Part shown: positions 15,364 to 34,110 of the stretch, in pieces
Numbering within the stretch: position 1 is the stretch's first letter
Layout: each line of letters begins with the position of its first letter
NCBI GenBank assembly: GCA_021324155.1
Contig: JAJPJQ010000037.1
Span: 100,427-164,426 of the forward strand
Source: Pseudomonadota bacterium
GTDB lineage: Bacteria > Desulfobacterota > Binatia > UBA9968
Length of the DNA: 64,000 bases
Reading direction: 5' to 3'
Notes under the pieces: generated by a model
Seen by the model: only the letters and a program-made list of their open reading frames with translations
The model's database searches: none
Told to the model about the DNA's origin: nothing
Position numbers and translations under genes: made by a program

Positions 15364-15711
15364 TCAGAGATTCAGAACGGAGAGAAATAAATTCGTAGAG
15401 ATTTTCTGCACGGGCGCGAGCCCCTCGCATGAGCCGAGTGAAAATCCCGCGGCCCCGACGCTGTTTAACGGAGTTTTCGGCGACAGGTAGCGCGCCGGCA
15501 TGCGCGCGCCGTCCGACGGCGCGGCATTTTCCAAGCAAACGCTGCGCTTGAGCGGCCGGTGCTGACTCACCGGCGCGCGGCCGTTCTCGGCCGCGCGCTG
15601 AGCAATCGAGTCGTAACGCCCCAGCGTCGCGCGGCCGCTGTGCGCGCAGACGAGCGCGAAGCCAAAGAAAAGCAGGATGGCAAGCGCGGCGATCGGTTGT
15701 TTCGCGAGCAT
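15364..15711 (-). CDS. Hypothetical protein with N-terminal hydrophobic signal
   Basis: MLAKQPIAALAILLFFGFALVCAHSG... Confidence 0.35.
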   Translation of the reverse strand: MLAKQPIAALAILLFFGFALVCAHSGRATLGRYDSIAQRAAENGRAPVSQHRPLKRSVCLENAAPSDGARMPARYLSPKTPLNSVGAAGFSLGSCEGLAPVQKISTNLFLSVLNL

Positions 15712-30644: not shown

Positions 30645-31508
30645 TTACCCTTTCAGGTTCGTCTTAAAAAAATCGACGGTCTTCGCCCAGGCTTCTTTCG
30701 CGGCCTCGGGGTTATAACGATCGGCATTGGTGTCGTTGTTGAACGCGTGCTTCGCGCCGGGATAGATCTTATAGGTAAACTGCTTGTGGTATTCTTTCAT
30801 CTTTTCGGCAGTCGCGGGCGCGTTGTCGCTGATCGGTTTGTCCTCGCCGCCGTAGTGCGCCATGACCGGCGCCTCGATCTTCTCGATCAGCTCGGGCGGA
30901 TTGGGTGTGCGGCCGTAATAGACGACGACCGCCTTCAAGCCCTTGACCTGAGTGGCCGCGTTGAACGCCTGCTGGCCGCCCCAGCAGAAGCCGGTAAGGC
31001 CGACGTTGCCGACTTCCGGCAGCGTTTTTAGATACGCGACCGCTGCGCCGACGTCCTCCGCGACATTGGCTTCCGGCGCCAGCTCACGGATGTTAGAGAG
31101 TCCCCCACCCTTTGGGTTTAGTTTTTCGGTGCCGCCTTTGCGCGAGAGAAAATCCGGCGCGAGCGCCACGAAACCTTCCTTGGCGAAGCGGCGCGCGACG
31201 TCGCGGATGTGGTCGGTCAGACCGCCGTTCTCGTGGATCACGATCACCGCGGGATGCTTGCCGCCGGCCTTCGGCTCGGTCAGATAACCGGAGATCGTTC
31301 CGCCGGGACCCTTAAACTCCACGTCCTTGGAGGTCAAGCCGGGGTCTTTGGGATCGACCTGCGCGGCGTAGGTCGATCCGAGCGTATCGATCAGCGTCGT
31401 CGCGGCGACCAGGCTGCCGGTCAGGACGACGGCCTTTTGAATGAACTCGCGCCGGCTGAGCTTGCCGCCGCGGTACTCTTCGACCAGTTGTTTGATTTCT
31501 TCCGGCAT
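30645..31508 (-). CDS. Dienelactone hydrolase family protein, Tat-like signal
   Basis: LSRREFIQKAVVLTGSLVAATTL; GFCWGGQQAFNAA; catalytic Cys variant of the alpha/beta hydrolase nucleophile elbow. Confidence 0.9.
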   Translation of the reverse strand: MPEEIKQLVEEYRGGKLSRREFIQKAVVLTGSLVAATTLIDTLGSTYAAQVDPKDPGLTSKDVEFKGPGGTISGYLTEPKAGGKHPAVIVIHENGGLTDHIRDVARRFAKEGFVALAPDFLSRKGGTEKLNPKGGGLSNIRELAPEANVAEDVGAAVAYLKTLPEVGNVGLTGFCWGGQQAFNAATQVKGLKAVVVYYGRTPNPPELIEKIEAPVMAHYGGEDKPISDNAPATAEKMKEYHKQFTYKIYPGAKHAFNNDTNADRYNPEAAKEAWAKTVDFFKTNLKG

Positions 31509-31519
31509 ATTGCCCTCCG

Positions 31520-32149
31520 TTATTTGATCATGTCGATGCGCGTAAGCGTCGTCTGCTGCCCAACGCCTGGCGAGTTAGTCATGTGGTACGCGGTATACTG
31601 CTCGAAGTAGAGATTTTCCGCCGACATGCCGTCGACCGGAATGACGACCTTGATGCCGCGGAACGCCGCCTGGCTGCCGGTGTTGAGCACGGCGCCCTGC
31701 GCGGCGGTGCCCGTGACGATCACGGTCTTGACGCCTTTTTCTTTCAGGATTTTTTCCAGGTCGGTGCCGAAAAATTTATCGGCCGACCCTTTGACGATCG
31801 GCTCGCCGTCCTGCGGCGCGACCTCCTTTAGAATATCGGCGGGCGTCGAGGCGCTCGTGACGCTGTGGATCACCGTGACCTTTTTCGCCCGCGCCTGCTT
31901 GAGCAATCCTTCGACCCTCGGGATCGTCAGCAGGCAGCGCGGCCGACGCTCGTTGTTGCAGGTCTGCTTGACAAAATCGAGGGACAGAACCGCGACGCTC
32001 GAGTCGAGCGTCACCGGCTTGAGCTCCGGCGGCTTCGGCGCCTGCACGTTGCCCCATTCTTCGATGACGTCTTTGTATTGCGCGTGGAGCGGCGCCGCCG
32101 ACAGCATCGCCAAACATAAGACGGCGCCGGCGAGATAGGCTTTGTTCAT
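31520..32149 (-). CDS. Isochorismatase family cysteine hydrolase, secreted
   Basis: Signal peptide; VTVIHSVTSASTPADILKEVAPQDGEPIVKGSADKFFGTDLEKILKEKGVKTVIVTGTAAQGAVLNTGSQAAFRG. Confidence 0.85.
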   Translation of the reverse strand: MNKAYLAGAVLCLAMLSAAPLHAQYKDVIEEWGNVQAPKPPELKPVTLDSSVAVLSLDFVKQTCNNERRPRCLLTIPRVEGLLKQARAKKVTVIHSVTSASTPADILKEVAPQDGEPIVKGSADKFFGTDLEKILKEKGVKTVIVTGTAAQGAVLNTGSQAAFRGIKVVIPVDGMSAENLYFEQYTAYHMTNSPGVGQQTTLTRIDMIK

Positions 32150-32181: not shown

Positions 32182-32415
32182 TTATAGCCCCAAAATTTGC
32201 GACAGCTTATCCGGGTCGAAGCCGACGAGCGCCTCACCGTCGATCAGCGTCACCGGCGTACTCTGATATCCCAATGCCAACAGCTCTTTCAATGCCTCCG
32301 GGTCCTCGCGCACGTTTTTGTCCGTAAAAGCCACGCCCTTTTGAGAAAGAAACTCTTTCTCTCGATGACACGGCCCTCAGCCCGGCTGCGTAAAAACCAC
32401 GACTGTTTTCGCCAT
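32182..32415 (-). CDS. Glutaredoxin-family protein with in-frame TGA at the first active-site Cys (predicted selenoprotein)
   Basis: Manual translation: MAKTVVVFTQPG(TGA)GPCHREKEFLSQKGVAFTDKNVREDPEALKELLALGYQSTPVTLIDGEALVGFDPDKLSQILGL*; TGA at 32377-32379; not in ORF track in this frame. Confidence 0.8.
32343..32361 (-). promoter_or_regulatory. Putative bacterial SECIS hairpin
   Basis: Minus-strand RNA GAGAAAGA-GUU-UCUUUCUC, perfect 8-bp stem with GU-containing loop, 15 nt after the UGA. Confidence 0.6.
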
Positions 32416-32562
32416 TGTGCTTTCTCCTTATTGAATGCGCCCGTCCGGCGCGCCTGCAAAGACTAACCAGCCGCGACCCCCGAGTCAATCCCCATGTCCG
32501 GGCGCCGGCCGTCGGGCCGGTGGCCGAACTTTACCAGCTGAAATCGATCTGCTAGCTTCGAC

Positions 32563-34110
32563 GTGCGAATGAAAAAATTACGCACGACCCATTCCACGGC
32601 GGTGGTCGCCGCCGGCATCTTTCTTACATTCGTCTTCAGCCTGTTAAGCGCCGCGAACGATATACCGCCGACGCCGAGCGTCCCGGTTGTCGCGGAGCTT
32701 ACGCGCCACGTGCAGACGCTGGCCGCCGACGACATGGTGGGCCGCGGCGTCGACACGCCCGGGATCGACATGGCGCGCGACTACATCGCCGCCCAATTCA
32801 AAAAATACGGGCTCGCGCCGGGCGGGACAGACGGCTACTTCCAGCGCCTGGAAGTAACGACCGGAGTCGAACCCGCCGGCCGGAACGAGGCGCACCTCGG
32901 CGCGGCCGATCTTGTGCTTTCGCGCGATTGGACTCCGCTCGGCTTTTCGGCCTCGGCCGCAGCCGAAGGAGAGGTCGTCTTCGCCGGCTACGGCATCACG
33001 GCGGGAAACCACGCCTATGACGATTATGCCGGCATCGATGCGAAGGGAAAACTCGTCCTCGTGCTCCGCTACGAGCCGCCGCCCAAGGATGAGAAGAGCC
33101 CGTTCGGAAAATATCCCCGCTCCTCGCGCTACGCGGCGCTAAACGCGAAGGCGGCGAACGCGCGCGCCCACGGCGCGGCCGGCCTCATTTTGGTCGATCT
33201 AAGCTCGCCGCAGGACGAGCTCATCAGGCTCTCGCGCAGCATAGGACGCGGCCAAGGCGAGCTCGTCGCCGCGCAAATTCGACGCGAAACGGCCGAGACC
33301 ATCCTCGGCGCCGCCGGCGTTTCGTTGAGCGATCTCAAGGCGGCGATCGATCGCGAGGAGAAGCCGCACTCCACGACGATCGGCGGCCTCAGGGCGCGGC
33401 TCGCGGTCAACCTAACGAAGACCGTGCGGCCGACGGATAATGTCGTCGCGATTATCCGCGGTTCCGACCCGAAGCTGAAAGATGAAAACATCGTCATCGG
33501 CGCGCATTACGATCACCTCGGTCTCGGCCACTACGGAACGATGGACCCCAACGCCGAGGGGCAGATCCATAACGGCGCCGACGACAACGCCTCCGGCGTC
33601 GCCGTCATGCTGAGCGTGGCGCGGCGCTTCGCCGCCGGCAAAGCGCCGCCGCGAACGCTCGTCTTCGTCGCCTTCACGGGCGAGGAGCTCGGGCTCTACG
33701 GCTCGCGCTATTTCGTGGAGCACCCGCCTTTTCCCCTAGCGGCGACCAAGGCGATGATCAACCTCGACATGGTCGGGCGAATGGAAGACAACAAGCTGAT
33801 GGTCAACACGGCCGATACGGCGAAGGAATTCCGCACGATGATCGGCCGCGCCGCGGGCGGTCTCGACATTGGCATGAAAGCCACCGGCGGCGGCAGCGAC
33901 CACGTATCGTTCTACAACAAAGGCGTTCCGGCGGTACATTTTTACACCGGCATGCACAGCGACTATCATCGCCCTACGGACGACTGGGAGAAATTGAACA
34001 TCCCGGGCATGAGTAAAGTCAGCGATGTCGTATTCACGCTTGCCGCCGAGCTCGCCGCTAGCCATGAGCCACTCGCATTCGTCAAACCGGCATCGCGGCG
34101 CGGCGGTTAA
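32563..34110 (+). CDS. M28 family metallopeptidase
   Basis: VIGAHYDHLGLGHYG...NGADDNASGVAVML...FVAFTGEELGLYGSRYFVEHPP. Confidence 0.9.
   Translation: MRMKKLRTTHSTAVVAAGIFLTFVFSLLSAANDIPPTPSVPVVAELTRHVQTLAADDMVGRGVDTPGIDMARDYIAAQFKKYGLAPGGTDGYFQRLEVTTGVEPAGRNEAHLGAADLVLSRDWTPLGFSASAAAEGEVVFAGYGITAGNHAYDDYAGIDAKGKLVLVLRYEPPPKDEKSPFGKYPRSSRYAALNAKAANARAHGAAGLILVDLSSPQDELIRLSRSIGRGQGELVAAQIRRETAETILGAAGVSLSDLKAAIDREEKPHSTTIGGLRARLAVNLTKTVRPTDNVVAIIRGSDPKLKDENIVIGAHYDHLGLGHYGTMDPNAEGQIHNGADDNASGVAVMLSVARRFAAGKAPPRTLVFVAFTGEELGLYGSRYFVEHPPFPLAATKAMINLDMVGRMEDNKLMVNTADTAKEFRTMIGRAAGGLDIGMKATGGGSDHVSFYNKGVPAVHFYTGMHSDYHRPTDDWEKLNIPGMSKVSDVVFTLAAELAASHEPLAFVKPASRRGG

Follow-up and report, generated by a model that had tools for sequence, protein, structure and literature searches.

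In the window, the whole stretch of 64,000 nt that was analysed, one minus-strand frame reads as a complete small glutaredoxin except for an internal TGA. The frame raises the question of whether this codon ends a broken gene or is decoded as selenocysteine (Sec). The features of the locus and its neighbours are listed below, with the basis of each assignment in brackets.

32182..32415 (-): gene of a very probable Sec-containing glutaredoxin, 77 aa, stop TAA (sequence, PF00462, kept in relatives)
32424..32429 (-): AAGGAG ribosome-binding site, 8 nt 5′ of the ATG (sequence)
32377..32379 (-): in-frame TGA, codon 13, predicted Sec, first position of UxxC (orthologs and homologous loci)
32368..32370 (-): TGT codon, resolving Cys16 of UxxC (sequence; Cys16 invariant in alignments A1 and A3)
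32343..32361 (-): predicted bacterial SECIS core hairpin, 8-bp stem, GUU apical loop (folding, covariation, bSECIS model)
32563..34110 (+): M28 family peptidase, divergent neighbour, context only (PF04389, 159.5 bits; neighbour in many relatives)
31520..32149 (-): isochorismatase-domain protein, downstream and co-directional, context (PF00857, 81.4 bits; adjoins the gene in few relatives only)
30645..31508 (-): dienelactone-hydrolase-family protein, downstream, context (PF01738, 196.5 bits)

The initial annotation had described a 78-codon minus-strand glutaredoxin frame with one TGA at the first catalytic Cys, and both its coordinates and its description are right. The translation of 32182-32415 has 78 codons including the TAA stop, and the predicted product is MAKTVVVFTQPGUGPCHREKEFLSQKGVAFTDKNVREDPEALKELLALGYQSTPVTLIDGEALVGFDPDKLSQILGL. 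Its active site is U13-G-P-C16, with TGA in place of the first Cys of CxxC. When Cys is substituted for the TGA, the product matches PF00462 at 51.9 bits (E 8.6e-14; cut-off 22.9), and at the level of protein sequence this match to glutaredoxin is certain and beyond chance. Table-11 ORF calling does not list the frame at 32182-32415.

Conservation of the frame and of its TGA

We surveyed 60 relatives for close orthologs, and 30 of them hold a full-length one with 62-82% identity. All 30 contain exactly one TGA, which aligns to codon 13 in 29 of the 29 orthologs read (all but that of G035), from independent assemblies. Among the orthologs cut by contig ends, two more hold the TGA and two others end before the site. 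The neighbourhood of a divergent M28 peptidase, a downstream dienelactone hydrolase and a GST is shared by many relatives, and the glutaredoxin gene is thus a single orthologous locus; the dienelactone hydrolase lies close to the gene in 17 relative loci, a count that includes repeats of the same contigs. AGGAGG-like sites are found 5′ of most orthologs.

The mean pN/pS of the gene is 0.29 before the TGA and 0.23 after it. The region past the TGA is therefore translated and subject to selection, and by these ratios the gene is under purifying selection. In alignment A1, 26 of 77 columns are invariant. No ortholog read contains a further internal stop; the decay in sister genomes that the initial annotation had named as an argument against a selenoprotein is thus absent, and the relatives have the gene intact, with its TGA. 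Several orthologs of the glutaredoxin gene terminate in TGA, so the codon retains its ordinary stop function there, and the earlier view that global recoding is unlikely holds.

More distant homologs were collected in a scan of named genomes, which gave 75 loci, and the active site was read in 70 of them. The codon is TGA in 63 and TGC in seven, which confirms the pairing of Sec and Cys at this site that the initial annotation had proposed to look for. Homologs with TGA occur in Binatia/'Deltaproteobacteria' MAGs, Methylomirabilota, Rokubacteria, Acidobacteriota, Chloroflexota, Bacillota and other groups; those with Cys occur in Bacillaceae, a Clostridia MAG, archaea and Chloroflexota. Their tree requires at least three changes between Sec and Cys, and it is poorly resolved, with too few columns to date them. 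In one Methylomirabilota homolog (L104:2491-2758), the TGA and the hairpin are present and the later frame is apparently lost; the match spans 268 bases rather than 231, reflecting either decay or an assembly error.

The hairpin downstream of the TGA

The initial annotation had reported a perfect 8-bp stem with a GUU loop 15 nt past the TGA, and this is what the sequence contains: the hairpin GAGAAAGA-GUU-UCUUUCUC at 32361-32343 (-) starts 15 nt 3′ of the TGA, with its loop 23 nt after the UGA. The bSECIS model describes a loop of 3-9 nt with G in the first two loop positions, a stem of 4-16 bp, a loop 16-37 nt past the UGA and an MFE of at most -7.5 kcal/mol (PMC13188914). The present element falls within these ranges, with a 3-nt GUU loop, 8 bp, 23 nt and -17.8 kcal/mol for the 50-nt region. 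The folding energy of this 50-nt region has a z of -2.87, and 1 of 200 shuffles folds as well; the bare 19-nt hairpin (-7.3 kcal/mol) is matched by 18 of 200. When the codons were randomised synonymously so that the protein was preserved, a stem of at least 8 bp arose in 678 of 20,000 sequences (3.4%), and an equally stable fold in 113 of 5,000. The hairpin in the window sequence alone is therefore only moderately unusual, and the comparative evidence decides.

In the alignment of 28 distinct orthologous rows, 99.6% of the cells in the 8-bp stem are paired, and one stem pair shows a two-sided change from A-U to U-A in nine sequences. Among 59 distinct TGA homologs from several phyla, pairing is 93.9%, compared with 37.5-78.6% when the stem columns are slid by 1-4 positions. 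Two-sided changes occur at three stem pairs in this set, in 11, 3 and 8 sequences; 49 sequences have a GUU apical loop and seven a GUA loop. The equivalent columns of the seven Cys homologs are paired in 44.6%. Synonymous difference is also reduced about 2.5-fold in the hairpin codons, to 0.28, against 0.71 across the remaining codons 3′ of the TGA. The conservation of the hairpin among homologs lies far beyond chance. A lower, outer stem predicted in the window fold was dropped for lack of conservation, with 61.6% of its cells paired. The Rfam scan of the glutaredoxin locus gave no family above threshold, and this result carries no weight because bacterial SECIS elements are too variable.

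The hairpin also appears to constrain the protein that it encodes: among the closer TGA forms the segment E-[KV]-E-[FY]-L-S-Q hardly varies, and Cys forms depart from it more freely.

Sec machinery, predicted mechanism and alternatives

The Sec machinery had been expected to lie outside the window, and its absence from the genome would speak against Sec. The host genome (4.80 Mb in 53 contigs, 98.13% complete) contains the whole set on a single contig, C16. The tRNA-Sec gene (selC) is located at C16:257-347 with 74.8 bits, and ARAGORN calls it as tRNA-SeC with anticodon tca. The selA (C16:71316-72650, 602.9 bits), selB (C16:69325-71211, 412.3 bits) and selD (C16:68287-69216, 391.6 bits) genes, all over their cut-offs, are adjacent, as they mostly are in the relatives.

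SelD is itself a predicted selenoprotein, with one in-frame TGA and Sec at codon 25 (AAGUAAK; L120:1686-2759 (-), contig C16), and a selD with one TGA is also found in most relatives of the same order. Some relatives show gaps in the machinery. G006, listed as 100% complete, has the TGA gene and no selA, selB, selD or tRNA-Sec above cut-off; in G004 and G024 parts of the machinery are undetected; and in G012 selABD is undetected and tRNA-Sec is present. These three likewise have the TGA glutaredoxin or paralogs of it. All four cases are probably due to contigs missing from fragmented assemblies, because selABD is clustered and the G006 congeners G014, G019 and G023 have selA. Within the window, 192 TGA read-through candidates were passed through a filter of motif plus stem in a search for a second selenoprotein, and the sole other pass was an implausible frame at 15549. 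PADLOC gave no result.

The AlphaFold model of the product has a mean pLDDT of 93.9 and the order strand-helix-strand-helix-strand-strand-helix. The solved proteins closest to this predicted fold are BC3987, the glutaredoxin cGrx1 of Clostridium (Alkaliphilus) oremlandii and NrdH-redoxins, and UxxC lies within an N-terminal Grx fold (predicted structure, TM 0.93 to 7c10). We consider it very probable that the gene encodes a Sec glutaredoxin of 77 residues, in which UGA 13 is decoded by SelB and the hairpin, Sec13 attacks and Cys16 resolves. SelB with Sec-tRNA(Sec) would bind the hairpin just 3′ of the UGA, so that codon 13 would be read as Sec without termination, and the product would adopt the thioredoxin-fold structure of a glutaredoxin. 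By analogy with cGrx1, Sec13 would be the nucleophile attacking substrate disulfides, and Cys16 would resolve the mixed selenenylsulfide into an internal Sec13-Cys16 bond. We infer both the insertion of Sec and the catalysis from sequence. The internal bond may then be reduced by a cellular reductant, either glutathione or an NrdH-type flavin reductase; the electron donor, like the substrates, is an inferred element of this scheme. The genome encodes a glutathione-synthetase-type domain, which permits glutathione-dependent activity and does not demonstrate it. A Binatota-type lineage thus very probably uses Sec in basic thiol redox chemistry.

Two alternatives would dispense with decoding of the TGA altogether. 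TGA is one base from the Cys codons and Cys homologs exist, so an assembly or sequencing error could have disguised an ordinary Cys glutaredoxin whose true codon is TGC or TGT; however, 29 independently assembled orthologs carry the TGA at this codon, and the hairpin is kept only alongside TGA. A decaying pseudogene ended by a genuine stop would fit the internal stop and the failure of ordinary ORF callers to find a gene, but not the lack of an extra stop in any full-length ortholog read, the pN/pS of about 0.23 and 26 invariant columns, or the intact ribosome-binding site. The conserved TGA, the purifying selection and the conservation of the stem in TGA but not Cys homologs exclude both, and the probability that we assign to either is negligible.

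The remaining alternatives accept that the UGA is read through. It could be read as Cys or Trp by suppression or in a recoded code, and the site is indeed Cys in some relatives. This is highly unlikely in view of the complete Sec machinery in the genome, the bSECIS-compliant hairpin 3′ of the TGA and the use of TGA as the ordinary stop of several orthologs of the same gene. The protein could also be a selenoprotein whose Sec13 serves chiefly to bind a metal or organometal, the role suggested for UXX-star proteins, rather than a thiol-disulfide oxidoreductase. The Uxx-star profile does match (E 8.2e-13), and metal binding has been raised for the UXX-star family in a review (PMC13188914). The match nevertheless falls short of the Uxx-star cut-off, the resolving Cys never varies, one of the nearest structures is that of a dithiol oxidoreductase and no metal genes occur among the scanned neighbours; we therefore regard metal binding as the main role of Sec13 as unlikely, and the Sec-dependent oxidoreductase as the preferred reading.

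Relation to known Sec glutaredoxins

The initial annotation had stated that Sec-containing glutaredoxins are known, which has been so since 2005-2011. Those with UxxC have been reported in the Sargasso Sea (PMC1088965), in sequenced bacteria (PMC1794560) and in GOS data (PMC2398784), and are listed in a 2026 review (PMC13188914). The present protein shares with this Sec-glutaredoxin (Grx) of the prokaryotic selenoproteome the PF00462 family and the position of UxxC. The reported hosts are Geobacter, Alkaliphilus, Moorella and marine metagenomes; Binatota and kin, Methylomirabilota and Rokubacteria are not named for Grx in the same literature (PMC13188914, PMC1794560, PMC2398784, PMC1088965). 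The kind of protein is thus already known, and the Sec glutaredoxin of the Binatota lineage is a new member of it. The present protein may already be included in a deep-Sep survey of groundwater MAGs (Deng et al. 2026), which is cited in the 2026 review (PMC13188914).

The best solved relative by sequence is cGrx1 (PDB 7c10, 7c12, 7c13), a native selenoprotein in which residue 13 is catalytic and Cys16 resolving (PMC7642778). The two proteins have near-identical length and the same layout of residues 13 and 16, and the predicted model superposes on 7c10 with TM scores of 0.93/0.96, an rmsd of 0.9 and 48% identity in the structural alignment. However, the residues around Sec differ, being N-T-[U]-P-H-C in cGrx1 and P-G-U-G-P-C here. 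A further difference lies in the partner. cGrx1 has been proposed as the reductant of a Sec-MsrA (PMC7642778), whereas the MsrA of the present genome is a Cys protein; a tandem Sec-Grx/Sec-MsrA pair is therefore ruled out, and with it the arrangement of two Sec proteins known from C. oremlandii.

We also compared the protein with the NCBIfam models. NrdH-redoxins and YruB-type glutaredoxins, which are usually Cys proteins, give the two top scores and share the GFD motif and close folds; the scores are 72.1 bits for YruB TIGR02196 (cut-off 88.55) and 65.4 bits for NrdH TIGR02194 (cut-off 85.75). The matches to Uxx-star (NF041212) and UXX-star families 1-3, which have a Sec glutaredoxin-like domain in common with the present protein, are significant and likewise stay under the curated cut-offs, with 48.4 of 66 bits for the former and 37 of 100, 32.5 of 97 and 26.1 of 72 bits for the three families. 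Since no current NCBIfam model reaches its cut-off, the protein is likely to stay unannotated, and in many uncultured genomes of the Binatota type standard ORF calling leaves only 12 codons of this conserved selenoprotein. A distinct, uncatalogued and mostly Sec-only clade of YruB/NrdH-like redoxins in Binatota, Methylomirabilota, Rokubacteria and kin, with a nearly fixed E-[KV]-E-[FY]-L-S-Q helix dictated by the SECIS element and a paralog in which the Sec redoxin, together with its hairpin, is joined to a DinB-like domain, is a tentative proposal that we hold to be doubtful. If true, the clade and its fusion paralog would form an undescribed selenium-based redox branch.

The genome itself encodes a second predicted selenoprotein at C2:85610-86389 (L121:2111-2890 (-)), in which an N-terminal Sec glutaredoxin domain (GUFTC) is followed by a DinB_2-like domain that is barely above the Pfam cut-off, at 26.2 bits. 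No NCBIfam model reaches its cut-off on this fusion protein, and we found no description of a Sec glutaredoxin/DinB-like fusion in the literature. The same type of fusion occurs in four relatives (L125-L128), where the TGA is followed by an identical CGAAAGA-GUU-UCUUUCG hairpin.
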